A stretch of DNA of 26,682 nucleotides from a virus. The notes under the pieces are model-generated. The model was not told where the DNA came from, did no database searches, and saw only the letters and a program-made list of their open reading frames with translations. Location: positions 1 through 26,682 of IMG/VR virus record IMGVR_UViG_3300044998_000750; one strand, 5' to 3'. A program made the translations under genes and the position numbers. Shown piece by piece: positions 2,672 to 21,910 of this stretch (position 1 is the first letter of the stretch; each line of letters starts with the position of its first letter).

Positions 2672-2709
2672 TTATTCCTTTTTGATTACGTTATTCCTTT
2701 TTGATTACG
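2672..2709. repeat. Perfect 19-bp tandem duplication at a gene junction
   Basis: Positions 2672-2690 and 2691-2709 are identical, and the identity runs 2 bases further. On the minus strand the unit carries the last codons of the DNA polymerase (VIKKE), its stop and an AAGGAATAA ribosome-binding sequence. The promoter-proximal copy ends the polymerase; the other copy forms the leader of the 2089-2670 gene. Deleting one unit would leave both genes intact, so this copy is benign. Confidence 0.9.
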
Positions 2710-4004
2710 TTCTTTAATTCATTGAGATTTTTGCCTGCCTTAGCAGACACCCTCAGCTTTAAGCCGGGACACAATTGGCTCTCGGACGAGAGGGCAGCTA
2801 TAGCTCGTTTGTAAACTTCCTTCCACTTATCTTTCGACGTGTACACCATATACCCGTCATGGACGTGGTAGGCCAATTTAGTAAAAGGAACTAGAGCTTG
2901 ATAAAGTTGGATTAGTTTTTCTAAGCAAACTATTGAGGCGGGAGATTGGACGCAAAAATTGCGTACTCTATATTCTTTTCCGTCGAAATAACGGCGTTTG
3001 CCAAATATATCATCGGCATAGCCTCTTTCTTTTACCTGATCTTGATAAGCCTGTACCCAAGCCAGAGCAGTTGGAAAAAGTTCGTGCATACGGTTTACAA
3101 TTGTTTCGGCGTTGACCTCTGCAATTTTGAGCCTGTCAGCCAGAGTATGAGCCGACATTCCGTATATAACCGGCAAGAAGAATTTTTTACATTTATCTCT
3201 TGCCTCTTTTAAATTAGTCTGCTCTCCAATTATTTTTTCGTAAAGTGAAAAATATACGTCGTCTTTTTGACAAAGTTCGGTTAATAGTGGGTCTTTGGAT
3301 AGCCAAGCCAGCATGAAAACTTCCATGCTGTTGAAATCGAAATACATGAAAAATTGATCGGGAAGGGGCTTCAACTTGGCCCGCTTTTCTTCGGTCAAAT
3401 TATGCGGGATATAGCCCTTGCTATAAGCCTTATGACAAAGCAGCCGACCATTTTCTTGGCCGTCAATTTCGTAATAAGCGTAGGATTGACCCTCAAAATC
3501 CGGGTCGATTATTCCGACCGTTTCGAGATGCGGCAAAACAGCGGTCATAAGCGGCAATTGAATATTTCGATAAATCACCGAGGATTTTTTGTAATTTGGC
3601 TCTGCCATTACTTTTTTCATCCGACCTAACGCTTCACCCAAAGTCTTTGGCGCAGCCAATTTCATGCCCAAATATGATTCGATTATTTTCAAATCAATAA
3701 TTGCACATTCGCACACAAGCGGCTTTTTGGTCTTGCCAAGCACATAGCTTGCGAAATTCTTCCAGTTCCAAGTGATTACCCTCGATCCCTTGGCAAACAG
3801 GGAGTAAGTCAACAACTGTGCTACTCTCTCTAAGTCATCTACCTTCTCAATCTCAAAAGAATATGACTGACCACCAGTTGCATGAATATGCAACTTGATT
3901 TCTTCTTTCTTTTCGGTGAAATCCAAGATTTCTGGCTCGAAAAGAAAAAGGCAATTGTTTGTCTCCAAACTTCCGAGAAATTCGGAAAACTTTACAAGGT
4001 CCAT
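2691..4004 (-). CDS. Family A DNA polymerase, polymerase domain with degenerate exonuclease region
   Basis: A 437-residue protein with the three polymerase A motifs in order. Motif A is YFDFNSMEVFMLAWLS with catalytic D223. Motif B (O-helix) begins RDKCKKFF and ends YG at 281-282. Motif C is HVHDGYMVY with catalytic D383. Motif C normally reads HDE; here the second acidic residue is G384. The N-terminal 170 residues have a spacing reminiscent of the 3'-5' exonuclease fold (WNWKNFASYVL, then IIDLKIIESYLG), but the Asp/Glu catalytic set is not evident, so proofreading is doubtful. There is no 5'-nuclease domain. It is much shorter than a Klenow-type enzyme of about 600 residues. It heads a minus-strand replication block ending with the helicase gene. 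The assignment is firm; its fidelity is inferred. Confidence 0.9.
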   Translation of the reverse strand: MDLVKFSEFLGSLETNNCLFLFEPEILDFTEKKEEIKLHIHATGGQSYSFEIEKVDDLERVAQLLTYSLFAKGSRVITWNWKNFASYVLGKTKKPLVCECAIIDLKIIESYLGMKLAAPKTLGEALGRMKKVMAEPNYKKSSVIYRNIQLPLMTAVLPHLETVGIIDPDFEGQSYAYYEIDGQENGRLLCHKAYSKGYIPHNLTEEKRAKLKPLPDQFFMYFDFNSMEVFMLAWLSKDPLLTELCQKDDVYFSLYEKIIGEQTNLKEARDKCKKFFLPVIYGMSAHTLADRLKIAEVNAETIVNRMHELFPTALAWVQAYQDQVKERGYADDIFGKRRYFDGKEYRVRNFCVQSPASIVCLEKLIQLYQALVPFTKLAYHVHDGYMVYTSKDKWKEVYKRAIAALSSESQLCPGLKLRVSAKAGKNLNELKNVIKKE

Positions 4005-4134
4005 TTTGCGCCATCTTCATTTAGCCACTGAGATAAACCTAGCTAAGTATAGCCTTCATTGGGAATTAAAACAAGAGAAGTTACTGAATTATAGCTCTTT
4101 ATTGTGATATGCGCATACCAAGAGCCGTGTTAAA

Positions 4135-4555
4135 GTTATAGTGATTTATAAAGAAAGAATACTATAGAGTAATATTCTTTCTTCTTGTTTTAGTAGAGAG
4201 ATTTCTCAACTCTACCAAACTATCACTATGCTTAACTTAATGTTCCGTACTGAGACGGAGAATCAGTGTACCCAATGAAAAATGCAGCAACCAAACCATA
4301 GATTAGTTCACTTGCTCGTCTGCTAAGTGAAATACGGCATTTTGGCTAATCTTGGCACACCTACGCTGCTGACCCGGATGGTTCTTGTCGGCCATCCTGA
4401 TACCTGTCAAGGCGGTCGGTTTTTTCACTTGAATTTCTTCGAGGGGGTACTCTCAAATATTTCAAGTGGGAAGAAGCGGTAACTAGCCGCTTATACATTT
4501 CTGTACTTAGAGCTTCCTTCTCAGTCACTTTGAAGTCCAACGACGAGACTTTTCG
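4135..4555. ncRNA. Candidate large structured RNA in a 630-bp gene-free gap
   Basis: Between divergent genes (4005-4635) no convincing ORF is seen, but stems are dense. 4138-4145 pairs with 4222-4229 and encloses 4151-4164/4170-4183 (13 of 14 pairs) and 4193-4198/4210-4215. Downstream are 4301-4306/4346-4351 enclosing 4307-4313/4325-4331; 4376-4381/4392-4397; 4426-4433/4461-4468; 4474-4479/4487-4492; and 4533-4537/4547-4551. At 4244-4267 two exclusive hairpins compete (TCCGT/ACGGA or ACTGA/TCAGT). The density and nesting suggest a folded RNA of several hundred bases. The strand is not determined; a TATAAT at 4557-4562 faces the downstream plus-strand gene. It matches no RNA family I recognise. 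Confidence 0.4.
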
Positions 4556-4635
4556 ATATAATAGCAACAAACTTCCGATGTTCAAGAGCGAAAAGCGTAA
4601 ATATTCCTGTTGATCTTCCCTGCGCATGAGGTACA

Positions 4636-5367
4636 ATGGCCAAAAAGAAAAGTTCGTCAAATTCCGAGGATGATTTTATGCCACTTCTCGATGCAATTGC
4701 CTATTATGGCATGGATAAACTCGAATCTGCTGCCTACAAATTGTGCATTATCTGGATCGAAAAAAGCAGGAAATTTTTCCCCGATTACGATCATACAAAA
4801 TTGCGCCGAGGCGATCCACGTCAATCGCTGATGTTCAAGGTTTGTTACAAATTCGTGCGAGAAACCCAAGGAATTCTGGACGAGGAAGATTATCCCTTGT
4901 ACGTCCGTGCCCAACTCGATATATTGAAAAATATAAGTCTTGGGAGCGATGAACATCCCCTTATCGAACCCAATATCCTCGTCGGGGAGAAGGCATGGAA
5001 GCGTTGGAAACTGTGGAAGAAAAAATATGATTCTGTCGTCTCCGAAAAGGGTTTCACCACTAAAATTACGGCTTCGTCCCAAAAAGTCTTGGATGCGTTT
5101 GAAAAAACCAAAGAGTTTATTTTCAAAACTCTCGGTCCCGAACCATCCCTCGAAAAATATCGAGAAGCCGTTATCAACAAAAATTTGTTCCGATGGATCA
5201 GTCTTGGGAAAATCTCGCCGTATTACTTGTGCTTGTCTCCGTATTTTAAGAAACTTGTCTCCGAAGAAGATTTGAAAAAGATTACTTTTGATCTTGAAAT
5301 CTATCGTGCTTGTCTTAATGATGAACTGATCGCCCTATTTGAAGAGAAATTCAAATATGAGTTCTAA
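4636..5367 (+). CDS. Hypothetical protein, 243 aa
   Basis: ATG at 4636 is preceded by GAGG at a good distance. The protein is soluble, mainly helical and rich in Lys, Trp and Tyr, starting with a basic MAKKKSS tail and an acidic EDDFMPLLDAI helix. No catalytic motif, Cys pair, signal or membrane segment is seen. It begins a plus-strand block after the structured gap, with a TATAAT-like sequence at 4557-4562 that could be its -10 element. The next gene follows 11 bases after its stop, suggesting an operon. I do not recognise the family. Confidence 0.75.
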   Translation: MAKKKSSSNSEDDFMPLLDAIAYYGMDKLESAAYKLCIIWIEKSRKFFPDYDHTKLRRGDPRQSLMFKVCYKFVRETQGILDEEDYPLYVRAQLDILKNISLGSDEHPLIEPNILVGEKAWKRWKLWKKKYDSVVSEKGFTTKITASSQKVLDAFEKTKEFIFKTLGPEPSLEKYREAVINKNLFRWISLGKISPYYLCLSPYFKKLVSEEDLKKITFDLEIYRACLNDELIALFEEKFKYEF

Positions 5368-5378
5368 GAGATTTCATC

Positions 5379-5738
5379 ATGGCAGTCAAAACACGATCTG
5401 TTGTTTGTGAATGTGGAGAACAATTTGAGGAAAATGACAAAGGGGAGCTTACCGGCAACCTGATCTACTCCCCTTGTCGCTGCCGTCACAGCAAAGTGCG
5501 CCAAACGAAAACCACGCAACAATCTGACATTCTTCTATGTGTGTTTGAAAGAGCAGTCGGATGTGGCAAATGTAAACAAGAAGTTTTCCGTGATAAACGG
5601 CAATATGAAATAACACCACCGATTGGCAAAGAATCGGTTCCAGTCACTTCGTATGCTTCTAAAGACTTTGTATTTTCCAATAAAGAGCCATTTATAGACC
5701 CAGAAGCGACTATAGAAGGAGTTAAACTCAATGAGTGA
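5379..5738 (+). CDS. Small Cys-rich, zinc-ribbon-like hypothetical protein
   Basis: A 119-residue protein. The N-terminal half has VCECGEQF, then PCRCRHSK, and later GCGKCKQEVF, giving three Cys pairs (C-x-C, C-x-C and C-x2-C) consistent with one or two structural zinc sites. The C-terminal 45 residues are acidic and lack motifs. It could be a small nucleic-acid-binding or adaptor protein, but nothing fixes its role. It follows the 243-residue gene by 11 bases. The stop region overlaps a 9-codon ATG frame (5731-5760), too short to call. Confidence 0.7.
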   Translation: MAVKTRSVVCECGEQFEENDKGELTGNLIYSPCRCRHSKVRQTKTTQQSDILLCVFERAVGCGKCKQEVFRDKRQYEITPPIGKESVPVTSYASKDFVFSNKEPFIDPEATIEGVKLNE

Positions 5739-5767
5739 CAAAGAAAGATATGTTGAATAAATAATTC

Positions 5768-6534
5768 ATGCTCAAAAAACCTAATATCAACATCCTTATA
5801 AGAAGAACAGAAAATTGGGATAAGTTAAATTCAGAACAACATGCCGAGTCGATTAAAAATTCGACCAACGATAGGCGTCCTTATGGGAACCCGATCAAAT
5901 TTATAGACAATTTGGCATAGACAATTTGGCTAAGTGGGATTCTTTTTTCCCTATCTCATATTATCAATATCGTCAAAAATTGAAAAATCTTTCGATCCGA
6001 AGTTTTCGATCAACTGGCCTCAAAACGGAATTGCCACCGAATTTTGTTGATGGCACAAATTATATCAACAAGCCTTATTTGCCAACCGACGACGACGATT
6101 GGTATCACCCATCTATAGGCAATGAAGTAGCAATACACTTTAAGAACCCTAAGATTAAATTGGTATATTGGCAGGCATGGATTTTCCATCTATCAGAAAA
6201 TTCAACCTATGATGGTCGCATGTTCTGTCCTTTTACAGAACACACCGGCAAATGGATGGCAAGCAATGGATATGCTGTCCGATCCAACAATTGGAATTGT
6301 TATATAGGTCACTTAAACAATAGGTTGGCATATTACAAACCAGAAGAAGTTGTTTATGTTGATAAACCCTTGAGTGTTTGGGTTCAACATCCCGCATCTA
6401 TTTGGGAACTACAAAGTTTTGATAAGCCAAATACCAAGTTAACAAAAAAGCAGCCCATTCCAAATGAATTAGAATGGGCTGCTGGATATATTGAGACTTC
6501 TTATGAATTTACAAACGATGCATTACGCTGCTAG
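5768..6534 (+). pseudogene. Glycosyltransferase-like gene frameshifted by a 14-bp duplication
   Basis: From ATG 5768 the frame stops after 50 codons at 5918. The same protein resumes in another frame at 5926 and runs to 6534. The break lies exactly on a 14-bp tandem duplication (5903-5930). Removing one copy gives a single 753-nt frame (250 residues) joining FIDNLA to KWDSFFP without a gap. The rebuilt protein has PTDDDDWYHPSI at residues 101-112, an Asp-rich metal-site pattern of GT-A glycosyltransferases, followed by strands rich in aromatic residues. No signal or membrane segment is seen. As written it is inactive, unless the downstream part starts at TTG 5926, which lacks the N-terminal nucleotide-binding region. 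The glycosyltransferase call is tentative; the frameshift is clear. Confidence 0.6.
5903..5930. repeat. Perfect 14-bp tandem duplication inside a coding region
   Basis: Positions 5903-5916 and 5917-5930 are identical. Fourteen is not a multiple of three, so the second copy shifts the frame of the surrounding glycosyltransferase-like gene and creates a TAG at 5918-5920. Confidence 0.95.
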
Positions 6535-6765
6535 TTTGATGCCGAATACTTGACCGCCCTCAACGAGCTTCTTCAAGTAAGCTGCTTCCAAACCTTCTCT
6601 TGTGAACGTATCGCCGTGCTTGCCCGTTACAAATGGTGTACCACCGTGCTTGCCGACTGGCAAATACAGGGTTTTCTGTGTTTCGGTTACTTGCTCTTTT
6701 TCAGCAGCAGTTTGGAAATAATTTCCAGCGTGCAATAGGTCGATTTCAAAGGTTACTGTGTACAT
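6523..6765 (-). CDS. Small hypothetical protein, 80 aa
   Basis: It has a strong ribosome-binding site, AAAGGAGGAAT, right before ATG 6765. The protein contains an internal near-repeat, GKHGGTPF and GKHGDTFT, at residues 38-54, which suggests a small beta-rich fold. No known motif is present. It ends 12 bases inside the 3' end of the convergent glycosyltransferase-like gene and is the last gene of the pyrB-containing minus-strand block. Its function is unknown. Confidence 0.7.
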   Translation of the reverse strand: MYTVTFEIDLLHAGNYFQTAAEKEQVTETQKTLYLPVGKHGGTPFVTGKHGDTFTREGLEAAYLKKLVEGGQVFGIKLAA

Positions 6766-6786
6766 ATTCCTCCTTTAATGGCTTAT

Positions 6787-7278
6787 TTATATATGCTCCT
6801 CTTCCCTAAGTTGCTCAAGGCAATTTAGGACTTCGGTTAAATATTGCTTAACCGCCTCATAGGTGCCCGGAGCCGTTTCTTCGGAGTTCCCTGCGATATT
6901 TAGTGTTTCTATTTTATTTTCCAATATCCACTTGGCTACTTCCTTGGCATCCTGTGGTTTTGCCAAGTGTACGTCCAAATGAACCTTGCCATATTTGTTG
7001 ATGGCATTGAGCGTACAAATCTCACCGGCTGAGCCAAAGTTATATGCTAATCGAAGCGTACCGTCACTATCTTTGACGTTTTTGTGTGTTCTGGGAACGT
7101 AGCTCTGTGAACTGTGTTCCTCGATGCCGAATAAGACAGCGTAATCAGGCTGTGGGCCTCGTAGAGTTTTGAATCCTTTGGGCATTGTTCCGCCCGTGGG
7201 AATTCCCAATCTTTTTGCTACAACTAATCCGGCAATATCAGCACCAGTCTGACCGCCTGAGATTATTTTTTTGAGCAT
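6787..7278 (-). CDS. SLOG-family protein, putative molybdenum-carrier type
   Basis: A 163-residue protein from ATG 7278, chosen because a GGAAGA site precedes it, it begins one base after the thioredoxin stop, and the conserved strand MLKKIISGGQTGADIAG starts there. The GGQTGAD motif near the N-terminus, TGGTMPKGF and a later FGSAGE are hallmarks of the Rossmann-like SLOG superfamily branch annotated as putative molybdenum carrier. Members bind nucleotide-like ligands; those near phage genes are often of unknown function. The in-frame region upstream of 7278 overlaps the thioredoxin gene and is not needed. A role in nucleotide signalling or modification is possible but not shown. Confidence 0.75.
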   Translation of the reverse strand: MLKKIISGGQTGADIAGLVVAKRLGIPTGGTMPKGFKTLRGPQPDYAVLFGIEEHSSQSYVPRTHKNVKDSDGTLRLAYNFGSAGEICTLNAINKYGKVHLDVHLAKPQDAKEVAKWILENKIETLNIAGNSEETAPGTYEAVKQYLTEVLNCLEQLREEEHI

Positions 7279-7279
7279 G

Positions 7280-7831
7280 TTATCTTCCAAATAGCCAAGA
7301 CAAAAATCCTTGGTTTGTTCCCCAACGTCCCAACATCCAGTTGACAAAATTCGCTGGGTCTTTGAAACCTGATCCAGAACGAATCGTATTCTCGTCTTTG
7401 TCAATCAAAACATAGGCTGGAATTCCACGAACGCTGTACTTGCGAGCCAATTCTTTTCTCTTGTCTGTATCGACGTGAATATGAATGATATTGCCATCGG
7501 CAATAGCTTTCTTTACCTCTTGGCTCTTTATGGTGCCTTCGAGTTTCCGACACCAAGTACACCAGTCAGCCCCAAAGACAATTAACACCTTTCTATCAGA
7601 TCGCTTCGCCTCTGCCAAGGCTTCTTCGTAAGTTGTGATTGCCAACGGACCATTATCAGGAGGCGTTATAACAGGAGGATTAGGATTTACTGGTCTGTTA
7701 TCGACCTGCACGTTATCCCAAATGCTTTGTTGCGGGCCAGAATGATTGAATTGCTCTTTGCTGAAATAGATAGCAGCCACTAACAGCAACAATGCTGCAA
7801 CGACGAAATTCAAAATATTCTTCTTAAACAT
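7280..7831 (-). CDS. Membrane-anchored thioredoxin-like protein
   Basis: A 183-residue protein. Residues 5-23 form one hydrophobic segment (uncleaved signal anchor), then a Pro-rich linker (about 46-62), then a thioredoxin fold. The active site WCTWC is at 90-94 with C91 and C94, and the cis-proline is in RGIPAY at P138. This topology places the redox domain outside the cytoplasmic membrane, as in DsbD-gamma or thiol:disulfide interchange proteins. It would reduce or form disulfides in envelope proteins, perhaps the Cys-rich secreted protein at 18433-18642; that link is speculative. Its start overlaps the pyrB stop by 8 bases, and AAGGAA lies upstream. Confidence 0.85.
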   Translation of the reverse strand: MFKKNILNFVVAALLLLVAAIYFSKEQFNHSGPQQSIWDNVQVDNRPVNPNPPVITPPDNGPLAITTYEEALAEAKRSDRKVLIVFGADWCTWCRKLEGTIKSQEVKKAIADGNIIHIHVDTDKRKELARKYSVRGIPAYVLIDKDENTIRSGSGFKDPANFVNWMLGRWGTNQGFLSWLFGR

Positions 7832-10220: not shown

Positions 10221-10318
10221 GGCTCTTCGGAGCCGAAAGCCCCTACATCATAGATGCTGGTAGGCAAAGCGACCGAGCGGAGCGAGGGAGACTGCCTACC
10301 AGCCCTTTAGGGTAGGGG
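10221..10318. other. Left-end structure of TnpB element 1
   Basis: Hairpin GGCTC-TTCG-GAGCC (10221-10234) is followed by a long-range stem 10240-10246/10312-10318. That stem encloses a short hairpin (about 10246-10249/10253-10256) and a 9-bp stem 10257-10265/10294-10302. Element 2 has the same architecture with different base pairs, so the fold rather than the sequence is conserved. Confidence 0.7.
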
Positions 10319-10498
10319 ATGAAGGCGATGGACTAAAGATCGCCTCAGAAATTTCTCCCTCTTGAAGCAAGATGAAGTATGGTCAAACAGGACACAGATG
10401 GGACAACAATCACACGACTGAAAGTTGTCCAAAGATTGCCTCAAGAGTTTTTCTCGTTCCCGTCGTAAAAATTACGATGACAACACTATATAAGGTTG

Positions 10499-11746
10499 AT
10501 GAATAAAAGGCTAGCCAAAAAGAACGAAACCAAAGAGAAGCGGAAGTCGCAGACCTGTAAGGTGTACGAAGTCAAAATTGACCACTCGCACCTGTCGGTC
10601 GCTGCTCTCGGACATCTCAACGGTTTGTTCAAGGAAGCCAAATGGTTCTACAACTACTGCCTGTCCCACGACAACGTGGATGATGCCGACACGACTACAA
10701 AGAAAGTACCTGTCAAGGTCGGAGACAAATACGAAACTCGATACTTTGATGTCCTGACTTCGCAAATGAAGCAAGGTATCAAGACACGACTGTTTGGTTC
10801 GCTTATGTCGCTCTCGGCGTTGAAGGAACAAGGATACAAAGTGGGAAGGTTGAAGTTCAAGGGAATGGTGAACTCCATCCCGCTCAAGCAGTTCAATAAC
10901 TCCTACTACATCAGAGAAGGTAAAGTACGGTTGCAAGGCATGAGGCAATGGTTGAGAGTACGAGGGCTTGAGCAAATACCGAAAGAAGCCGAGATTGCTT
11001 GTGCGACCTTGATACGGAGGAACGGCGACTACTACATCAACATTACGACCTACGCCAACAAACAGAAGAAGCACATCCCCGAAGCAGTGATAGGCATTGA
11101 CTTTGGGTGCGAGACACAACTGACATTTTCTAATGGTGTCAAGGTTCGGTTTCAAGTTCCTGTGTCCAAGAGGTTGAGGAAGTTGGACAGGAAGATAATG
11201 AAGAAGAGACGGAAGGATAGCAACAACAAGGAGAAGGATAAGGAGAAGAGAAGGATTGAGTACGAGAAATTGACCAATCGTAGGAAGGACATTCGGCATA
11301 AGTTGGTCAATGCTGTTGTGAGCAACTATCGGTATGTTGTTTTTCAGGACGAGAGCATTGCTGGGTGGAAAGCAAGCGGTCATGGAAAGAAAGTTCAATT
11401 TTCAGGCATTGGGTCTATATTGGCTGACTTGAAGCACAAGGCAGTCGCTCCGCTTGAAGTGGACAAGTTCTATCCCTCTACCAAGCTCTGCCCTAAGTGT
11501 GGGAAGAAGAACGCACCGACACTTGCCGATAGGGTGTATGAGTGTGGTTGTGGTTTTGTGATGGACAGGGATGTTAAGTCGGCAATATGTATCAGGGATG
11601 AGGGAATGAGACAAATACCTGTGGAACGCAGGGAATATACGCTTGGGGAGATTTCAACCTCTACTTTTCTTGGGGCTTTGAGTAAAATCAAAGGCATTCA
11701 AGTGAGCAAGTTGGAGTCGTTGAGCCAAGAAGCCGCTACCCTTTAG
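10499..11746 (+). CDS. tnpB: TnpB RNA-guided nuclease, element 1
   Basis: TnpB proteins are RuvC-type nucleases guided by an RNA made from the element's right end. With ATG 10499 (AAGG upstream; a TTG lies one codon before) it has 415 residues. RuvC-I is VIGIDFG (D201). RuvC-II is VVFQDESIAGW (about E285), the FQDE type rather than the common I-E-D. RuvC-III is MDRDVKSAI (D358). The zinc ribbon has C331-x2-C334 and, unusually, C349-x-C351. The N-terminal domain is basic with a long charged helix (about 225-265). The stop codon lies inside the right-end hairpin, so coding sequence and guide-RNA scaffold overlap. It appears complete and differs in sequence from the other two TnpBs here. Confidence 0.9.
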   Translation: MNKRLAKKNETKEKRKSQTCKVYEVKIDHSHLSVAALGHLNGLFKEAKWFYNYCLSHDNVDDADTTTKKVPVKVGDKYETRYFDVLTSQMKQGIKTRLFGSLMSLSALKEQGYKVGRLKFKGMVNSIPLKQFNNSYYIREGKVRLQGMRQWLRVRGLEQIPKEAEIACATLIRRNGDYYINITTYANKQKKHIPEAVIGIDFGCETQLTFSNGVKVRFQVPVSKRLRKLDRKIMKKRRKDSNNKEKDKEKRRIEYEKLTNRRKDIRHKLVNAVVSNYRYVVFQDESIAGWKASGHGKKVQFSGIGSILADLKHKAVAPLEVDKFYPSTKLCPKCGKKNAPTLADRVYECGCGFVMDRDVKSAICIRDEGMRQIPVERREYTLGEISTSTFLGALSKIKGIQVSKLESLSQEAATL

Positions 11747-11762
11747 GGTAGCGGTAGTTCAC
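11733..11762 (+). other. Right end and probable guide-RNA 3' boundary, element 1
   Basis: A 9-bp hairpin with loop TTTA (11733-11741/11746-11754) is followed by TAGTTCAC. In the TnpB family the guide RNA scaffold ends here, and the adjoining host bases from about 11762 serve as guide. The tnpB stop lies in the loop. Element 2 has the same hairpin with a compensating pair change. Confidence 0.65.
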
Positions 11763-12942: not shown

Positions 12943-13045
12943 CGTTCTTCGGAGCCGAAAGCCCCTACCTCTGGTACTCCAGAGGCTACCTGCCAAGTGA
13001 GGGAGCGTAGCGACCGAGACGGCAGGTAGCCCTTTAGGGTAGGGG
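12943..13045. other. Left-end structure of TnpB element 2
   Basis: The outer stem is 12962-12968/13039-13045 (same sequence as in element 1). Hairpin 12968-12974/12979-12985 has 7 bp with loop TACT, and stem 12985-12994/13021-13030 has 10 bp. The inner stems differ in sequence from element 1 but keep pairing, which is covariation between the two copies. The gap to the RHH gene at 13198 holds more shared blocks (ATGAAGTATGGT, ATGGGACAA). Confidence 0.7.
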
Positions 13046-13197
13046 ATGAAGGCGATGCCGTGAAGATGCCATCAAAATCATCTAACCCATGAAGTATGGT
13101 GACGCTTGGCTGAATGGGACAAAAATCGCACCCCTAAAAATCGGCTCAAAATCAGATTTCTTTGCAAGAAATTGTCCTACAATACTACATAAAGTGC

Positions 13198-13356
13198 ATG
13201 ACAAAGAAAAAGAACATAGCCGACAAGGTACTATCTGTCCGAGTCCCAAGCGAACTGTTCGATAAGTTCAAGAAACTCTGCGATGAGAACTACAAAACCA
13301 TGTCGGACACGTTGCGTGACTTCATCAGAGAATATACCAAACAAGGAAACAAGTGA
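13198..13356 (+). CDS. Ribbon-helix-helix (CopG/Arc-type) small DNA-binding protein
   Basis: A 52-residue protein from ATG 13198. A basic N-tail is followed by VLSVRVPSELFDKFKKL (beta strand and first helix), then YKTMSDTLRDFIREY (second helix), the usual RHH layout. RHH dimers bind operators through the strand. Its stop overlaps the tnpB GTG start (GTGA, 13353-13356), so it is coupled to tnpB and probably represses the element or aids its maintenance. The longer frame from 13162 has no better start. The presence of an RHH gene in front of a transposase-less tnpB is noteworthy. Confidence 0.8.
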   Translation: MTKKKNIADKVLSVRVPSELFDKFKKLCDENYKTMSDTLRDFIREYTKQGNK

Positions 13357-14582
13357 AGCATCTGTACTCCTATAAGTTTCGATTGTCACCAACACCACAA
13401 CAGGAAGTATTGCTTGCCAAGCACTTCGGCTGCGTTAGGTGGGTGTACAACCACTTCCTCGACAAGAGGATTGAGGAGTACAAGACCAACAAGAAGTCGT
13501 TGAAGCGGAGCGACAACGAGAAAGAACTACCAGAACTCAAGACGACCTACACTTGGCTCAATGAAGTAGGTAGCCAATCCTTGCAGTATGCGGTCGAGTG
13601 CTTGCAGAACGCTTACAACCATTTCTTCCGCAGGTGCAAGGAAAAGAAGAAAGGGAAGAAGGGCTTCCCACGCTTCAAGAAAAAGTACCAGCAACAGTCC
13701 TTCCGAGTCAAGCAGAACATCTACTTGATAGACGGCAGACTGGTAATGCCTAAGTTCCTTGAAGGCATACCAGTCATCCAACATCGTGATGTTGAAGGCG
13801 AGATACAGTTTGCGACCATCAACAAAAACAAGGCAGGGCAGTATCATGTTAGCATCACGGTCGAGCGTGAGATACAACCGCTACCAGAGACGGCAGAAGT
13901 CATTGCTTATGACCTGAACGTGCGTGGCATGGTAGATAGCAACGGTAATGTGGAGAACAACCCACGACCGATGAAGCAGTATGCCAAGCGATTGAAACTT
14001 CTGCATCAGGCGGTTAGTCGTGCGGAGAAAGGAAAGAATGGACGAAGGAAAGCATGTACCAAGTTAGCGAAGTTGTACCTCAAGGTACACAACAAGCGTG
14101 AAGACTTCCTGCACAAGTTGTCGAGACGTATCATCAACGAAAACCAAGTTGTATGCGTCGAGGACTTGAGCGTTGAGTCCATGCTTGCAAAGGTAGCACC
14201 CGAAGAACGAGATGAGCCGAGATGGAAGGAACGCCGCAGGCACAAAGACATTGCCGATTGTGGTTTCTACTCGTTCATCCAGAAGTTGTGCTACAAAGCC
14301 GTCTGGTATGGCAGGCAAGTCGTGAAGGTGAGTCGCTGGTTTCCGTCATCGCAGTTATGTCATCACTGCGGCTGGAGGAACAAGGACTTGAAACCACACG
14401 AACGAGAGTGGTGTTGTTGGAACTGTTGGGAGACAAACCAACGTGACCACAATTCGGCTTGCAACATACTGGACGAAGGGCTTAGAATAAGAACCTCTGG
14501 AACAGAGGGGATAGCCGCTTGCTCTGATGTAAGACCCGCTAAAAGTGGGCTGTTGGTTAGAGCGGAAGCCGCTCCCCTTTAG
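13353..14582 (+). CDS. tnpB: TnpB RNA-guided nuclease, element 2
   Basis: Starts at GTG 13353, overlapping the RHH stop; 409 residues. The N-terminus YSYKFRLSPTPQQE is typical of IS605 TnpB. RuvC-I is IAYDLNV (D187, with N in place of the usual G). RuvC-II is CVEDLSV (E270). RuvC-III is NQRDHNSACNIL (D365, preceded by R rather than DR). The zinc ribbon is C336-x2-C339 with C355-x2-C358. All metal ligands are present, so activity is plausible. The C-terminal 35 residues are rich in Ala and Gly and overlap the guide-RNA scaffold; the stop lies in the loop of the right-end hairpin, exactly as in element 1. Confidence 0.9.
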   Translation: MKHLYSYKFRLSPTPQQEVLLAKHFGCVRWVYNHFLDKRIEEYKTNKKSLKRSDNEKELPELKTTYTWLNEVGSQSLQYAVECLQNAYNHFFRRCKEKKKGKKGFPRFKKKYQQQSFRVKQNIYLIDGRLVMPKFLEGIPVIQHRDVEGEIQFATINKNKAGQYHVSITVEREIQPLPETAEVIAYDLNVRGMVDSNGNVENNPRPMKQYAKRLKLLHQAVSRAEKGKNGRRKACTKLAKLYLKVHNKREDFLHKLSRRIINENQVVCVEDLSVESMLAKVAPEERDEPRWKERRRHKDIADCGFYSFIQKLCYKAVWYGRQVVKVSRWFPSSQLCHHCGWRNKDLKPHEREWCCWNCWETNQRDHNSACNILDEGLRIRTSGTEGIAACSDVRPAKSGLLVRAEAAPL

Positions 14583-14598
14583 GGGAGCGGTAGTTCAC
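14569..14598 (+). other. Right end and probable guide-RNA 3' boundary, element 2
   Basis: Hairpin 14569-14577/14582-14590 has loop TTTA and is followed by TAGTTCAC. Compared with element 1 one A-T pair is replaced by C-G, a compensating change. The guide would be read from the host sequence starting near 14598. Confidence 0.65.
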
Positions 14599-14629: not shown

Positions 14630-15361
14630 ATGAAACCTTTCGCAGACCAGAAACGAATCCTCCCTGAATTCCCGAAGACTCGCCATCTTCCGTGGAAGCC
14701 GAATACGGTACGGGGTGATCTAGTCGTTTCTGAGGACGAAGCCAAGGTAATTTTTGAAAATCCCCGGACTTTCGTTCAAGAGGACTTTCGTTCAAGAGAA
14801 AGTTGACGGAGCCAATTCTGGTATGGCCTTGGTGAATGGCGAGCCGATTATCCGTAATCGGGAACACATTCTCCGCAAAGGCTTTATGAAGGACACCCCG
14901 GCGAAAAAACAATTCGCCTCGATTTGGGGGTGGTTCTATGACCATCGTGAGAATTTCGAGACTTTGAATGATTTGCTTGGCCCGGTATCCGTTTACGGCG
15001 AGTGGATGATTCAAATTCATGGCATGGTCTATGACTCGCTGCCGGATTGGTTCTTGGCCTACGACGTATACGACTACGAGGCCGAAAAGTTCTTGGACCC
15101 ACAACTGGCGATGGATGCCCTTCAAAAATCTGGGTTTTCTGTCGTTCCGACTCTAAAGATTGGCGTCTCGTCCTACGAAGAACTTGAGACGCTGGCGAAC
15201 GATAATTCGCCTTTTGCCGCTATTCCACGAGAAGGCGTATATGTCAAAGTATCTGACGGCAAATGGCAAGTAGACCGCTTCAAGATGGTCCGACAAGGAG
15301 ATTCGTCCAAGGCGGCTTGTTTGACAATAAAACGCTTCGCAAAAATCGTTTGGCGAAGTGA
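14630..15361 (+). pseudogene. RNA ligase (nucleotidyltransferase superfamily) with two frameshifts
   Basis: The 5' part (14630 to about 14797) reads PEFPKTRHLPW and then NPRTFVQE before a 16-bp tandem duplication shifts the frame to a stop. Removing one copy joins VQE directly to KVDGANSG, the ligase motif I with the AMP-accepting lysine (K52). Then follow NREHILRKG (motif Ia), VYGEWM (motif III), REGVYVKV (motif IV) and DRFKMVRQGD (motif V). A second shift lies near 15300: one added T restores DFVQGGLFDNK to the TGA at 15359-15361. The repaired frame is 717 nt, 238 residues, like the small Deinococcus-type RNA ligases. It would seal nicked RNA. The kinase gene at 15725 is its natural partner. 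As given it is inactive. Confidence 0.75.
14766..14797. repeat. Perfect 16-bp tandem duplication in the RNA ligase gene
   Basis: Positions 14766-14781 and 14782-14797 are identical. The extra 16 bases put a frameshift just before the catalytic KVDG motif and lead to a stop (TGA) soon after. Confidence 0.95.
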
Positions 15362-15399
15362 GAGTAAAATCCCTGTCTCCGTATGTCCTTGGAGGAATC

Positions 15400-15735
15400 A
15401 TGTTTCGCAATGGCTTTACGTTGATCGAACTTCTCGTTGTGTTGGTGATTGTGGCAGTCGTGGTCTTACTGGTTGTAAGTGCCACTGGCTTTGGCGCTTC
15501 GGAGTACGACGCCAAACTGGTACAAAAATGGACTGACGTTGATTACGAGGGGCATCCGGTTTATCGGGCGCAATTCGTGAAGTCCGACGATGAAGTGGTC
15601 ACGGTTGATTCCTTCTGGTATCACAACGATTTGCACAAGGATTCTTACTACAAAATTCGGGTTTTTGGTGGGCGTTTGACCGGCATCACGCCACAACCAC
15701 AGCCCGTTCTAGTTGAGGCGAAAGATGGACATTAG
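15400..15735 (+). CDS. Prepilin-like protein with type IV pilin N-terminus
   Basis: ATG 15400 has GGAGG five bases upstream. The 111-residue protein starts MFRNGFTLIELLVV: a short positive leader, G5/F6 cleavage site, and Glu at mature position 5, followed by about 20 hydrophobic residues. This is the exact signature for prepilin peptidase processing and N-methylation. The rest is a short beta-rich domain (YDAKLVQKWTDVDYEG, then VFGGRLTGITPQ) without paired cysteines. It would depend on host prepilin peptidase and could be assembled into, or interfere with, a host pseudopilus. The end overlaps the kinase start. A pilin-like protein in a phage block is unusual. Confidence 0.75.
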   Translation: MFRNGFTLIELLVVLVIVAVVVLLVVSATGFGASEYDAKLVQKWTDVDYEGHPVYRAQFVKSDDEVVTVDSFWYHNDLHKDSYYKIRVFGGRLTGITPQPQPVLVEAKDGH

Positions 15736-16273: not shown

Positions 16274-16280
16274 GGGCAAA

Positions 16281-16828: not shown

Positions 16829-17892
16829 AATATTTAAGAACCTTTACGCTCTTTTCCTTCGAGGGAATCGAGCTAAAAGTTAGTTGGTCATTCCAGCTAT
16901 TTGTTTTGATTTTATTTTCCATGCTCTTTTTGACGGGGCTGGGCGAAGGCTTTTTGCACGGTCTGGTTCTTGCAACCACAGTCGTGTTTTGTGTGTTTTT
17001 CGCCTATTCCTTTGTCGTTGTTCATGAATATGGGCACGCCTTAGCCGCCAAACATCTAGGATATAAAACGAGAGATATTTCGTTGTATCCGATGGCCGGA
17101 CTTGCCTCTATCTCCGGTGAGTGGCATAAAAATCCTTGGCATGAATTTATCATTACTATTTGGGGACCAATTACCAATTTGGTAATGGGTGCCCTTGCCT
17201 TTGGGTTTTTGCAATTCTGCGAGGCAGAAACGCTAGAACATGCAATTGTTAATTTTGCATTCAAAGTGAATTTCTCGCTTCTTCTTTTCAATTTGATTCC
17301 TGCCTACCCGATGGATGGCGGTCGCATTCTTTGTTCAGCAATCGGTGCAATTTCCAAAGATTGGTGGACAGGTACAGTTTGGGCAACTCGTTGTTCATTT
17401 GTTTGTGGTTTGGTCGCCATCCCGTTGGGTTTTTATTTTCAGAATCCTATAGCGGGCCTTATGATCGGGTTTATGGGTCTATTTGCGGCTCAAGCAGAAA
17501 TGGCTCACTTGAAGAATTTGAGAGAAATTGAGCAATTAGAAGAAGAGCGATTAGCTTTATTTTCTAACCTGATGCGGAGCGAATCTCTACAGTTGTATCC
17601 CGACGACCCCGTGCGTCGTGAGGAATTTGTGGAAATTATGATGAATTTCCATAAGTTTCTAATGAGGTTTATCAATTGGGCAGTGAGGGAAAAAATCCCT
17701 ATTGAAGACTTTGAGAAGATGATTGCTTATCTTTTCACTCAAATGAAAGACGCAGAACGCAATCGTGAAATGAACGCAAAAGCAGCGTTTGATGAAAACG
17801 GTTTGTTTGAAGAAATCCGTGAGGCCGCAAATGAATATCGACCAGTTGTGGGTGACGCACAACTATCTGAGACACAAAGAGAATCTGCATGA
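16825..17892 (+). CDS. M50 (site-2-type) intramembrane zinc metalloprotease
   Basis: A 355-residue protein. HEYGH at 67-71 supplies the two zinc His and the catalytic Glu inside a membrane helix; the third ligand is D164 in NLIPAYPMDGGR (156-167). About six membrane segments lie between 20 and 225. The soluble C-terminus (about 230-355) is helical and charged, with no PDZ or CBS domain. Site-2 proteases cut transmembrane substrates such as anti-sigma factors or signal peptides. In a phage it may cleave a host or phage membrane protein, perhaps the prepilin-like protein or a small membrane protein nearby. It overlaps the genes before and after it (62 nt with the latter). Confidence 0.9.
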   Translation: MKYLRTFTLFSFEGIELKVSWSFQLFVLILFSMLFLTGLGEGFLHGLVLATTVVFCVFFAYSFVVVHEYGHALAAKHLGYKTRDISLYPMAGLASISGEWHKNPWHEFIITIWGPITNLVMGALAFGFLQFCEAETLEHAIVNFAFKVNFSLLLFNLIPAYPMDGGRILCSAIGAISKDWWTGTVWATRCSFVCGLVAIPLGFYFQNPIAGLMIGFMGLFAAQAEMAHLKNLREIEQLEEERLALFSNLMRSESLQLYPDDPVRREEFVEIMMNFHKFLMRFINWAVREKIPIEDFEKMIAYLFTQMKDAERNREMNAKAAFDENGLFEEIREAANEYRPVVGDAQLSETQRESA

Positions 17893-18346
17893 AATGGTTC
17901 TCTATGTTGTCAATGGTGGAGTGTGGACAAAAGAATATCTTGAAGAATATAGCCGGTCGCAGGGGTTAAACCGGGTTTCGCCCCTTATTCAGCTTTCTCG
18001 TTTCGATGACGGGAAGATTTTCCTGCATGACGGGCATCATCGAGTTGTTTCAACTTACATTGCTGGGCGGCATGTTCTTCTTCCCGGCGAGTATGAGATT
18101 ACTGACTGGACCTATCCAGATTATCTCGAAATAAACCACGGTAATGGCTGGTATACCCCATTCGATCCACGGGTTCATACGAGAACACCAGACTTTGCTA
18201 AATTCAAAAAGCTGGCGAGGGAACGATTCGTGATTGATCCAGTTGAGGCCGAGAAGTGGATTGTGGAAAATGCCAATCTTTTCCGTGAACCCAGACGTTT
18301 CAAATCTGTAGTTGAGTTAGCTAACTCGGTCCCTTTACGGGGTTGA
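17831..18346 (+). CDS. ParB/sulfiredoxin-like domain protein
   Basis: A 171-residue protein from ATG 17831, which has GAGG upstream and begins inside the M50 gene. The strand IFLHDGHHRVVSTYIAG (residues 64-80) is the box II signature of ParB-like nucleotide-binding domains, D-G-x-H-R. No helix-turn-helix follows, so it is a standalone catalytic or nucleotide-binding domain rather than a partition protein. Phage versions include nucleases and CTPase-like modifiers. Whether it cuts DNA cannot be seen. A canonical promoter starts right at its 3' end (18343). Confidence 0.7.
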   Translation: MNIDQLWVTHNYLRHKENLHEMVLYVVNGGVWTKEYLEEYSRSQGLNRVSPLIQLSRFDDGKIFLHDGHHRVVSTYIAGRHVLLPGEYEITDWTYPDYLEINHGNGWYTPFDPRVHTRTPDFAKFKKLARERFVIDPVEAEKWIVENANLFREPRRFKSVVELANSVPLRG

Positions 18347-18371
18347 CAAGTATTGAACGATTGATTATACT
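18343..18371 (+). promoter_or_regulatory. Near-consensus sigma-70 promoter for the Cys-rich protein gene
   Basis: TTGACA (18343-18348), exactly 17 bases, TATACT (18366-18371). It is the best housekeeping-type promoter in the window. The expected start near 18378 falls on the first base of a terminator-like hairpin (18380-18406), so the transcript either begins with that hairpin or is mostly terminated. Confidence 0.75.
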
Positions 18372-18379
18372 TGCTTCCT

Positions 18380-18406
18380 GACGCCGAAAGGTTTGGCGTC
18401 TTTTTT
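18380..18406 (+). terminator. Terminator-like hairpin between promoter and gene
   Basis: Stem GACGCC/GGCGTC (18380-18385, 18395-18400), with further A-T pairing in the loop, is followed by six T. It may end transcription coming from the ParB-like gene, act as an attenuator, or be a 5' stabilising hairpin of the Cys-rich protein mRNA. Confidence 0.7.
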
Positions 18407-18432
18407 GTTTCCTCTCAAGGAGGCTTTTGAAA

Positions 18433-18642
18433 ATGAAGACTTTAGTTGCTGCTGCTTGCTTGTTTGCGGTGATGGCTTTCTCTGGTACGGCTGAGGCCGG
18501 TTGGAGAAAGCGTTGTTGCCAGCCAGTTTGCACCCCTTGTGTACAAAAAACTGCTTGCAATACTTGTTGCAATCAGCCCGTTCGCAAGGTTATCAAGGCG
18601 GTTCTTCCGCCCTATGGATGCCGGAAGTGTTGCTGCAAGTAA
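18433..18642 (+). CDS. Secreted Cys-rich miniprotein, 69 aa
   Basis: ATG 18433 has AAGGAGG ten bases upstream. Residues 1-22 form a clear Sec signal peptide with cleavage after AEA. The mature part of about 47 residues starts GWRKRCCQPVC and holds eleven Cys, including CC pairs and a final CRKCCCK, with many Lys and Arg. It is probably disulfide-bonded or metal-binding outside the cytoplasm. Similar CC-x-PV-rich secreted peptides are common in Planctomycetota, which hints at the host or the gene's origin (inference). It is transcribed on its own between a strong promoter and the hairpin at 18689-18726. Overall role unknown. Confidence 0.75.
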   Translation: MKTLVAAACLFAVMAFSGTAEAGWRKRCCQPVCTPCVQKTACNTCCNQPVRKVIKAVLPPYGCRKCCCK

Positions 18643-18644
18643 CA

Positions 18645-18923
18645 CTATTCCCACTTCTCTACACTATCAATCCAGTAGTGTAGAATCCATCGACCGGAAG
18701 TAGACATATACTTCCGGTCGATTTTTATTTGTCCACTGTGAATTTTTCGGTGGCAATTAGAGCAGGCAACGATTGTATTGAAATCGGTGTATTTGCCACC
18801 TTCTTCGCCGGGCACAATGCGATGACAGTCCAAGACTGAGTAATCTTCTTCGCCGCAGAAATAACATTTCTTTTCGTATTTCTTTTTGGCAACTTTGTTA
18901 ATTAGTGTCTTGCGGCGTCCCAT
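18645..18923 (-). CDS. HNH endonuclease
   Basis: A 92-residue protein with all HNH parts. The zinc Cys pairs are C20-x2-C23 and C54-x2-C57; DCHRIVPGEEGG has the catalytic His (H34); then N49 and CHRKIHSG (H58, H62). The C-terminal STSGRWILHYW is typical of small phage and host HNH proteins. It would nick or cut double-stranded DNA; free-standing copies may be homing-type or packaging-related. The start overlaps the methyltransferase-like gene by 26 bases. Codons for residues about 68-78 form the stem of the terminator serving the opposite strand. Confidence 0.85.
   Translation of the reverse strand: MGRRKTLINKVAKKKYEKKCYFCGEEDYSVLDCHRIVPGEEGGKYTDFNTIVACSNCHRKIHSGQIKIDRKYMSTSGRWILHYWIDSVEKWE
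18689..18726 (+). terminator. Rho-independent terminator for the Cys-rich protein gene
   Basis: A 14-bp perfect stem (18689-18702/18709-18722, 6-base loop) is followed by a T-rich tract. It lies inside the antisense HNH coding region. A promoter-like TCTACA, 17 bases, TAGAAT (18658-18686) sits just before it on the same strand and is probably incidental. Confidence 0.8.
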
Positions 18924-19536
18924 TGTAGGTGGCTATTCCAACTCCGTATTTCTCCTCAAATATTCTATAATTGTAATTGGGATTATTCAAAAAATACTTA
19001 TCGAATACAGGCCGCTCGGCACAGATATAGCCGTACTTTGTTTCCACATCCGGCTTCCACATTCCTTCCGCACAATCGTGGCACATTTGCGTAATTTTTG
19101 GATCGTGATCCAGAATAGTTTTGACACAAAACTCGACGTGATCCCAAGTGTGGGCACAGTCGTGGAAGACTAATTCGATGGGATATTGTCTAAGTAATTC
19201 AGGCAATTTCTTTTCGGCATTCCCCCAGACCTTGATAATTGAAGGATCATCGTCGGGAAGAAATTCTAAAGTTCCACAACTTTCAGGCGGATAGTTGTTT
19301 TCTGGACATGCTCCCAATTCAACGGTGATAAATTTACCGCCTACTTGCTTCATGGCGTCGGAGAAGATAAGCCCGGAATGCCCATGTTGACCACCAAGTT
19401 CCAGCATTGCCTTGGGTTTTAGTTCCAAAATTAAATCCCAAATGAGACGAGCCTCATTCTGCGTCATTGTGCGGATCGCTCTTTTGGTTAGAGCTTTTTG
19501 GAATTTTTCCCAAGCCTTTTCAAATGTGTAATTCAT
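18898..19536 (-). CDS. Class I SAM-dependent methyltransferase-like protein
   Basis: A 212-residue protein. KAMLELGGQHGHSGLIFSDAM (split here as LELGGQHGHSG, about residues 45-55) is motif I of Rossmann methyltransferases with the glycine-rich turn. KFITVELG is motif II with the ribose-binding Glu, and ELVFHDCAHTWDHV is the motif IV region. This pattern matches the Methyltransf_24 group, whose members act on small molecules or sugars. No NPPY motif is seen, so an adenine-N6 DNA methylase is unlikely. It overlaps the HNH and the PD-(D/E)XK-like genes at both ends, forming a compact nuclease/methyltransferase cluster. A restriction-type pairing is conceivable but not shown. Confidence 0.7.
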   Translation of the reverse strand: MNYTFEKAWEKFQKALTKRAIRTMTQNEARLIWDLILELKPKAMLELGGQHGHSGLIFSDAMKQVGGKFITVELGACPENNYPPESCGTLEFLPDDDPSIIKVWGNAEKKLPELLRQYPIELVFHDCAHTWDHVEFCVKTILDHDPKITQMCHDCAEGMWKPDVETKYGYICAERPVFDKYFLNNPNYNYRIFEEKYGVGIATYNGTPQDTN

Positions 19537-20041
19537 TTTTTTCTAAATTTGGTATTTCTTCCATTTTATTCAATTCGGAATACTTGAGGTTGTAACAATC
19601 TTCTTTTGCTGGCCAAGGTGTGCCGGGGTCTTTTTGACCCTTTTTAAGATAAAATGCTTTATCAAAGAATTTCTTTTTCTCTATCCAGCCCATCACATAG
19701 GCTTTTGTTGGATTTTCAATAGGGCACAAACTTACAAACAAATAGTTATCGCAATCTTGTTTGGTATTTTTTGCACAAACAGTTGCATTATAATTCAATC
19801 TTGGCGGAACGCTTCGAGCTTTTGTTTTTATTTCGTATGTCTTCCCGTCTTTGATTATGTCATAGTCATAAGACGTGCCGCTCACTATTCTTCCTTTCAA
19901 TATTTTGTTAGCGGCCATTTCTCCAAGAAATCCCGTTTCATTTCCTTCTCCTTTTCTTATTGAATTCTTTAGCTGGCCCATCGCATCAGCTTTTCTTTTT
20001 GCAATTTTTTTCATTGCTTCGGTAACAGGAACTTCGTGCAT
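19520..20041 (-). CDS. PD-(D/E)XK-like nuclease, putative
   Basis: A 173-residue protein. GFLGEMAANKIL gives the conserved helix Glu (E41), followed by YDYDIIKDGKTYEIKTKAR with D61, E70 and K72, the D...E-x-K arrangement of restriction-type nucleases. A basic stretch (KTKARSVPP) follows. It could be a small restriction-like or recombination nuclease, and its overlap with a methyltransferase-like gene invites that idea. Known restriction-enzyme families are not recognisable, and the length allows only one catalytic domain. The gene ends 17 bases inside the methyltransferase-like gene. Confidence 0.6.
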   Translation of the reverse strand: MHEVPVTEAMKKIAKRKADAMGQLKNSIRKGEGNETGFLGEMAANKILKGRIVSGTSYDYDIIKDGKTYEIKTKARSVPPRLNYNATVCAKNTKQDCDNYLFVSLCPIENPTKAYVMGWIEKKKFFDKAFYLKKGQKDPGTPWPAKEDCYNLKYSELNKMEEIPNLEKNELHI

Positions 20042-20048
20042 TTCTTCC

Positions 20049-20357
20049 TCACATATTCTTTAGATAAAGTTCGAGGTCGTTTTTGCCCCGAATTGTGTAG
20101 AGGCGTTTTTCAGTCACTTTCATGACGTGCTTTTTTGCGCCCTTTTTACTTAACAGACGCATATCCATCGCCTCTTTGAAGGTTTCTTCTACTCCACATA
20201 GAAAAACCCATATCTTATAATCGTCATATTTTAGAAAAACTTTAGCGTCTTCAAAATACGACTCCCAGATAATGCCTAGCTTTTTGGCTGTTTTAGCATA
20301 TCTTTCGACCATAAGTGCGCTGTGATTTTTGTAGAATTCAATTGGCAAGTCTTGCAT
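20049..20357 (-). CDS. Hypothetical protein, 102 aa
   Basis: A short, soluble, mostly helical protein with a basic C-terminal half (KKGAKKHVMKVTEKRLYTIRGKN in part). No motif is recognised. It lies 9 bases after the UvsW-like helicase gene and 7 before the PD-(D/E)XK-like gene, so it belongs to the same operon. Confidence 0.65.
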   Translation of the reverse strand: MQDLPIEFYKNHSALMVERYAKTAKKLGIIWESYFEDAKVFLKYDDYKIWVFLCGVEETFKEAMDMRLLSKKGAKKHVMKVTEKRLYTIRGKNDLELYLKNM

Positions 20358-20366
20358 ACAGTTCCT

Positions 20367-21806
20367 TTAAAAGTCAATTTTATCTTTAATTGTAACGGTA
20401 TGTCCTTGCTCTTTCAATATTCTGATACGCTTCTGGCTGTGTTCCAAGAGATAGGGGTTTATATTAAACAAGAAGTCGTAGTAATTCAAACCTTCTTTAT
20501 CTTCTGCTGTACGAAGTCCACGACCCATTCTCTGAATGATTTGGTGATCGGCCTGCCCACCAGCAGCGTTAATGAGATTGTGGATAAAGACGTTGATACC
20601 CGTGTTGAAAATCTGCTGGGTAGCAATCGCAATTACGTTCTTTTTTGATTTTTGAAGAGTCTCGATAACGCCCTTGCGGGTTTTTGAGTCGTCTTTTCCT
20701 TGTACCCATAAAGACCCCGGCAAGAGATTATGGAGGGCATCGCCGTGGGCAATACGATCCACCAGAATAAGTGTTCTGCCTTTTTGTTGTTTGGCGAGCT
20801 TAGTGACAATTTTGTGGAAGTGGAAACTTTCCGCAATACCACGAGTGACAGCATCCAGATAAATATCGTAAGGAATTGCAGGTTCGTCTATTGGGTAGAA
20901 CGTACAGTCGGAAGCAGAAAGAATGCCACGATTTTGTAGCTCTTTGGTTGTGAGTACGCCACCCTCAGCCGATTTAATTTCCAGAACCGGCCCGAAGAAT
21001 CCTTTGACGTAATATTTTTGAACTTTGTCTTTCTCGCCAAATTTAAACGGTGTAGCACTGAGGGCTACCCGTATATCGCAACTTTTGAGTCTACGATATA
21101 CAGCTTTAGGCAAAGCGCTCATCATGTCGTGGATTTCATCCACGATTACCACTTTGATTTTTGATAGCACTTTTTCCATTTTGGCTACGGACTGGACCGA
21201 TGCCACGGTAATTATGTTTGGTTTTACATTACCACCCCATAACGTACCGACATTCTGAACTCCCCATTTACTGATTTCAGAATAGTTTTGTTCAGCCAAG
21301 CCGACTCTATTTTGTAAAACAAGGGTCGGCGTGTTTGGCGGAATTGCACGCAGAATGCCGAGCATGATGAAGGTTTTGCCCGCACTTGTGGGGGCATATA
21401 TAACGCCTCGTCTATGCTTGATTACTTTGTTAACTAACTCAACTTGGTAATCATGAAGCGTAACCGGGTTGTATCCCGGTGGCAGGGCATTGTTGAAAAA
21501 ATCTTCTTTTATTTCAGAATATAGGAACGGTGTTTTTGTTCTTTCGTCCTGAATTTCATATGATACATTGAAGTGCTTTAATGCTGAAAGCACTTCAGGT
21601 AGCAGCCCCGTGAGGAATTTGCCTGTTTCGAGTTTGAAGAATTCGGTATAGCCGTCCCACATGCCCATTTTGTAGCGGCGATTGTGGAAATAGTTCCTTT
21701 CACGGAATCTGAGGCAATCCCAAATCTTGTGTTTTATTCCAGTCTGATCTGTCATCAGAAAGGAATAGTCATTGCTGATTTTGAGTATTGCTTTGCTGTT
21801 GCTCAT
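20367..21806 (-). CDS. UvsW-like superfamily 2 helicase
   Basis: A 479-residue protein. An N-terminal domain (about 1-110) with MGMWDGYTEFF and FLTGLLPEVL resembles the DNA-binding part of T4 UvsW. Then follow Walker A APTSAGKT (138-145), DEIH (223-226), SAT (250-252) and motif VI QRMGRGLR (425-432). UvsW-type helicases unwind branched DNA, drive fork regression, and switch T4 from origin- to recombination-dependent replication. All motifs are intact. ATG 21806 has AAAAGGT upstream. It heads the minus-strand block of nuclease genes. The superfamily assignment is firm; the UvsW label rests on the N-terminal resemblance and phage context. Confidence 0.85.
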   Translation of the reverse strand: MSNSKAILKISNDYSFLMTDQTGIKHKIWDCLRFRERNYFHNRRYKMGMWDGYTEFFKLETGKFLTGLLPEVLSALKHFNVSYEIQDERTKTPFLYSEIKEDFFNNALPPGYNPVTLHDYQVELVNKVIKHRRGVIYAPTSAGKTFIMLGILRAIPPNTPTLVLQNRVGLAEQNYSEISKWGVQNVGTLWGGNVKPNIITVASVQSVAKMEKVLSKIKVVIVDEIHDMMSALPKAVYRRLKSCDIRVALSATPFKFGEKDKVQKYYVKGFFGPVLEIKSAEGGVLTTKELQNRGILSASDCTFYPIDEPAIPYDIYLDAVTRGIAESFHFHKIVTKLAKQQKGRTLILVDRIAHGDALHNLLPGSLWVQGKDDSKTRKGVIETLQKSKKNVIAIATQQIFNTGINVFIHNLINAAGGQADHQIIQRMGRGLRTAEDKEGLNYYDFLFNINPYLLEHSQKRIRILKEQGHTVTIKDKIDF

Positions 21807-21910
21807 TTGTTACCTTTTTGGGACGCTTGTTTTTGTCAAGCGAACTCCGATTTATTTTACCCGATACACCCTTGGTCCGTCTAGGCTTTTTTCTACCGCA
21901 GCAAGCCATG
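21767..21910 (-). pseudogene. Small basic protein frame broken by a 4-bp repeat
   Basis: ATG 21910 has one of the best ribosome-binding sites in the window (AAGGAGG, four bases spacing), yet its frame stops after five codons. The sequence right after the start has TTGC twice in tandem. Dropping one copy opens a 45-codon frame, MACGRKKPRRTKG and onward, highly basic and then Gln-rich, ending inside the helicase gene at about 21767. Either a real small gene was lost by slippage, or the site belongs to a 5-codon leader peptide for the helicase. The evidence is the strong site and the sensible restored frame. Confidence 0.35.

Follow-up and report, generated by a model that had tools for sequence, protein, structure and literature searches.

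Short exact tandem duplications in a putative huge-phage fragment: most likely products of sequence reconstruction

The virus record IMGVR_UViG_3300044998_000750, a contig assembled from environmental DNA and examined here in full as a window of 26,682 bases with no Ns, contains exact, adjacent tandem duplications of 19, 14, 16 and 2 bp, which together cause three frame breaks in two genes. A near-identical contig, L031 (3300045921_000372; 9,442 bases), carries two further ones, of 6 and 11 bp, at other positions. We conclude that these duplications were most likely produced while the sequences were being reconstructed and are not features of the phage. The evidence lies in the lengths and boundaries of the six events, in the comparable relatives, and in the near twin; a duplication process operating within the phage lineage, replication slippage, and cutting by resident TnpB nucleases are weighed as alternatives.

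Tandem duplications in the window and in a near-identical contig

The 19-, 14- and 16-bp duplications are far above chance. They lie at 2672-2711 (unit 19, match run 21), 5903-5930 (plus strand; unit 14, run 14) and 14766-14798 (plus strand; unit 16, run 17), where a first-pass annotation had reported them, and no tandem with a unit of at least 11 arose in any of 60 second-order Markov shuffles of the window scanned for units of 4-25. The same scan shows that the shorter exact tandems are mostly chance occurrences: 93 of unit 4 (shuffle mean 94.6), 28 of unit 5 (25.2) and 2 of unit 7 (1.6), with unit 6 mildly high (15 versus 7.0) and no exact tandems of units 8-13 in the window. A 4-bp repeat near 21897, which the first-pass annotation had counted among the unusual, gene-breaking ones, is unremarkable because repeats of that size are no more frequent than in the shuffles, and the gene in question starts downstream of it, at 21928.

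That annotation had also stated that three of its four repeats shift the frame of otherwise coherent proteins, but only two do so, those at 5903 and 14766; the 4-bp repeat breaks nothing and the 19-bp repeat is intergenic. The latter stands between two intact minus-strand genes, a DNA polymerase (2691-4004) and the gene at 2089-2670, both of which are covered over approximately their full length by proteins of the relative L002 (contig 3300005825_000057, 101.5 kb). When the L002 proteins were searched against the window, insertion-free frame changes were found in two, a protein of 259 amino acids and an RNA ligase. The first (L002 4150-4926) matches the gene at about 5768-6576 (plus strand; function unassigned) in two frames, at 40 and 53% protein identity, and the switch of frame falls at the 14-bp repeat; the part at 5926-6534 has no Pfam or PHROG match. 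The RNA ligase gene (14630-15358, plus strand; Pfam PF09414 on 14799-15422) matches L002 9848-10558 in three frames and is broken twice. The first break is at the 16-bp repeat, just upstream of what we take to be the KxDG motif of RNA ligases, and the second is at a 2-bp duplication (GAGA, that is, GA twice; 15298-15301, plus strand) absent from the original list of repeats.

L031 matches the window over positions 19625-23405 (3.8 kb) with four substitutions and two insertions or deletions (indels). Both indels are exact tandem duplications found in L031 only, the window being single-copy at each: one of 6 bp (window 21920-21926, plus strand), which is upstream of the 21928 start and breaks no gene, and one of 11 bp (window 23019-23029, plus strand), which breaks the frame of the open reading frame at 22622-23515. 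The earlier suggestion that such duplications recur is thus supported, and since the near twin carries different ones, the duplications are recent. The frame at 21928-22218 stands alone and is short, as are its counterparts in relatives (104-202 codons from stop to stop, a 53-codon row in this comparison being clipped by a locus end); it resembles only positions 187-256 of the 444-position major head protein profile phrog_138.

All four substitutions in L031 change an amino acid. At 21112, 21982 and 23169 the residue in the window is also that of the nearest relatives found (L032/L033 where aligned, and L002), whereas at 20004 L002 has valine, the window isoleucine and L031 asparagine; at the 21112 site, which is in the helicase, the distant relative L096 has serine, the same as L031. 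Two of the substitutions are near the duplications, 21982 being 62 bases from the 6-bp site and 23169 being 150 bases from the 11-bp site. The window and L032 differ in the helicase by 162 synonymous and 20 nonsynonymous codons, and in the polymerase the synonymous:nonsynonymous ratio is 87:25 against L003 and 86:32 against L005; given the shares seen in these relatives, the probability that four of four changes are nonsynonymous is 0.0001-0.005. Because all four are nonsynonymous against the 162:20 of the helicase, L031 looks error-laden, and its differences from the window are unsifted by selection and hence either errors or very recent mutations. The tandem indels between the rest of L031 and L034 comprise a 4-bp insertion in L031, a 2-bp insertion in L034 and 1-bp events. 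A sample with a number close to that of L031, 3300045909, is a hybrid Illumina and PacBio assembly, which says nothing certain about L031 itself.

Copy number in relatives and frequency in other contigs

The window is largely collinear with L002 and with L003/L032 (both from contig 3300020197_000128), and the longer aligned blocks are approximately 70-87% identical. The first-pass annotation had raised the case of close relatives carrying the same duplications in fixed form; no such case was found, and the comparable relatives are single-copy. One copy is present at the 2672 site in all three relative contigs that align across it (L003, L005 and L002/L004, the last two labels denoting one contig), the RNA ligase frame is uninterrupted at the 14766 site in five of five (L002, L018, L128, L129 and L127), and the single relative comparable at the 5903 site (L002) is likewise uninterrupted there. 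No single-copy relative of the 5903 site turned up when viral contigs were scanned with a degenerate pattern, and an RNA ligase pattern matched 34 stretches in GTDB genome contigs, none of them a relative. In alignments to L003, L032, L005 and L002 there are no tandem insertions of at least 5 bp on the side of the relative, whereas the window side has the 19-bp insertion and, against L005, another of 5 bp at 2005. In these alignments the insertion at 14766 comes out as two separate gaps, and the 5903 site is unaligned.

Two controls were used to ask how often such events occur in other contigs. The first took all alignments of at least 97% identity and at least 1 kb among 110 loci and the window (L001 and later-fetched loci were omitted), giving 208 alignments with 2,173,312 columns, 11,688 substitutions and 1,286 indels, a set that is heavily redundant through loci sharing one or near-identical contigs. 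Apart from the 6- and 11-bp events of the window-L031 pair, the longest tandem indel in the other 207 alignments is 3 bp. The second was a scan of 1,113,426 non-redundant bases of relatives (omitting L001, L021-L024, and any stretch with 88% or greater similarity to a longer locus), which contain 76 exact tandems of unit 11-40. Fifteen of these are two-copy, in the sense that the run exceeds the unit by no more than 3, and in just one of the fifteen, the 11-bp duplication of L031, is the unit length not a multiple of 3. There are three of this kind in the window. At a rate of one per 1.10 Mb, the Poisson probability of at least three in 26.7 kb is about 2e-6.

Reconstruction error or duplication in the cell

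All six events (2, 6, 11, 14, 16 and 19 bp) are exact, adjacent and shorter than 20 bases, and all are thus within the range of overlaps too short to be merged, if the minimum overlap is assumed to be about 20. Their lengths are slightly better described as uniform on 1-20 than as geometric (log-likelihoods -17.97 and -20.29), a weak preference in which the upper bound was chosen afterwards. The match extends beyond the unit by 2, 0, 1, 0, 0 and 1 bases, a mean of 0.67 compared with a random expectation of 0.70, and there is no sign of a reading-frame filter, since 3 divides none of the units 14, 16, 19, 11 and 2. Six exact events with no more microhomology than chance would give point away from slippage on repeats and towards junctions between ends that have a stretch in common, formed either in silico or in the library, or in the cell from filled-in staggered ends.

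We favour the first of these. Where coverage is thin, neighbouring reads or contig ends may truly share only 2-19 bases, and if such ends were placed end to end with the overlap left unmerged, the overlap would be written twice; we infer an unmerged overlap of this kind as the cause, arising at assembly, gap closing or library making. With assumed 150-base reads, a 21-base minimum overlap and 6x coverage, a stretch of 26.7 kb would be expected to contain 3.2 undetected overlaps. An unmerged overlap explains why the lengths are flat and stop near 20, why reading frame makes no difference, and why the substitutions in L031 look like errors. Among the interpretations offered in the first-pass annotation, recurrence stands and assembly error is the one that fits best and that we think probable, while slippage on repeats and a TnpB link, taken up below, fare poorly. 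Comparable errors have been described. In the relevant part of one report, scaffolding of contigs despite overlapping flanks left IDBA-UD and CLC assemblies with Ns and with sequence present in duplicate (PMC7111523), and as here a stretch shared by two neighbouring ends stands twice. In another, low coverage, and the combination of long and short reads with low short-read coverage, gave rise to spurious pseudogenes (PMC11017572); these resemble the present case in that genes intact in relatives have broken frames, although the portion of that text available counts bacterial frameshifts and internal stops and makes no mention of tandem duplications.

Several observations weigh against an unmerged overlap. 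The published scaffolding error, as far as its description extends, has Ns between the copies, and there are none in either the window or L031. The same 6x model that predicts undetected overlaps also expects 2.65 true gaps per 26.7 kb. Assemblers based on k-mers require read support. The rest of the window is clean and hence unlike raw-error sequence: window-unique residues number 50 in 2,915 sites of 13 genes and most are conservative (two of 15 genes, with only one relative group, were omitted), and the gene beside the 19-bp repeat has 0 in 193 sites. Other contigs in the collection, short ones included, are without such duplications, and both affected contigs belong to one lineage, as would follow directly from a process peculiar to that lineage.

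Such a process, by which short exact tandem duplications would arise in this lineage in vivo and without microhomology, is a possibility that we take seriously but hold to be less probable than not. The suggested route is that staggered breaks are filled in and the ends joined, with selection yet to remove the damage, and exact duplication without microhomology, as seen at the sites, is what fill-in and end joining would be expected to leave. It gains from the confinement of the events to two contigs of one lineage, from their absence from the 207 other near-identical alignments and their single occurrence, in L031 itself, in 1.11 Mb of non-redundant relatives, and from the window being clean in other respects; mobile elements that interrupt genes, and deletion joints, are further features of the lineage. 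In eukaryotic cells, breaks are known to give rise to small tandem duplications without homology: in the part of the source concerned, they form in mammalian cells by fill-in and end joining (PMC8355091). As here, the small tandem copies need no flanking repeats; there, the process involves mammalian Pol alpha-primase, CST, Shieldin and non-homologous end joining. Tandem duplications are also listed, in the section of a study of a fungus that deals with them, among the repair outcomes that follow Cas12a and Cas9 cuts (PMC9684475). A literature search found no paper linking phage escape, Cas12a and tandem duplication, and no description of such duplications in a phage was among the matches listed for assembly errors and break repair.

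Three points count against duplication in the cell. No repair genes for such joining were identified, none having been searched for and only selected window proteins having been scanned; no common sequence across the six sites was seen by eye; and ordinary decay would bring single-base indels and deletions, but the genes compared with L002 have none in addition to their duplications. The fuller form of the proposal, a huge-phage lineage with high-rate, microhomology-free duplication in vivo through the filling-in and joining of ends left by staggered cuts of a host or phage nuclease, is one we regard as unlikely; it would entail a duplication-dominated mutation spectrum in which genes are inactivated in the time taken to accumulate only a few substitutions.

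Replication slippage between short pre-existing repeats, which the first-pass annotation had proposed to be frequent here, is improbable. Exact tandem copies are its usual product, and most short insertions in flies and primates are tandem duplications, according to the relevant passage of PMC2374710. At the six sites, however, the flanking microhomology is at its random value, as the extensions given above show; the lengths have no skew towards short units, and near-identical pairs of relatives have no tandem indel longer than 3 bp.

Mobile elements, genome context and implications

Staggered cutting by the resident TnpB nucleases followed by fill-in and joining, a link that the first-pass annotation had offered as speculative, is very improbable. 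The window does contain three tnpB genes (10496-11746, 13353-14582 and 24857-26071), two of them in TTTAC-flanked elements and one beside a serine recombinase gene. When the 16 bases 3' of the three element right ends were compared with the six sites, the best of the 18 comparisons matched at 11 of 16 positions and the lowest background fraction was 0.10, so that no guide-like match is clearly above background; moreover, the overhangs left by TnpB-type nucleases are of a few bases, not 14-19.

The mobile elements holding these genes span 10221-11762, 12943-14598 and 23955-26121. Two are IS200/IS605-like, with TTTAC at the left end and GTAGTTCAC at the right, and the remaining one, beside the serine recombinase, is IS607-like. 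The element at 10221-11762 splits a gene that is whole (267 amino acids) in L002, some 20 bases of the target being absent, and that at 23955-26121 splits a 113-amino-acid gene of L002. At a deletion joint at 26465-26469, GGTC-TTTAC of the window is joined to the flank of a tRNA-Ser gene, a flank that in L031 follows another TTTAC; at the L031 joint, the TTAC at window 23401-23404 is joined to sequence preceded in L032 by the same GGTCTTTAC. The window contains 29 copies of TTTAC. Because this motif also flanks the two IS200/IS605-like TnpB elements on the left, the TTAC deletion joints may be transposase-related. Dense tRNA clusters, mostly Ser and Leu and with several tRNAs of one anticodon, lie beside this region in L031 (2508-5385, 11 tRNA genes) and L034 (2625-6839, 16), and the window ends in one tRNA-Ser from such a cluster.

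The proteins of the window match those of huge phages. Among named phage records, the helicase is closest to LR756511 (595 kb; 54.6%) and the RNA ligase to LR756511 (44%), LR745206 (40%) and LR756502 (38%), genomes of 595-642 kb; we read the window as part of a huge-phage genome. A Megablast search of named phages with 25 of the 26.7 kb gave no match. Three of the sample numbers of relatives appear in the literature: 3300005825 (L002) is named in the portion consulted of a paper on Columbia River estuary sediment (PMC6848030), and 3300020197 and 3300020214 (the latter the source of L033) in that of a Lake Tanganyika paper (PMC8245535).

If the duplications are artefacts, two genes in this record would wrongly pass for pseudogenes, the RNA ligase gene and that at 5768-6576. 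A scan for exact two-copy tandems with a unit of at least 11 that is not a multiple of 3 and a run close to the unit, which gives one hit in 1.11 Mb of relatives, that of L031, and three in the 26.7-kb window, could then flag such errors in virus catalogues. If they are instead real, they would represent a homology-free, duplication-dominated mutation process in a phage.

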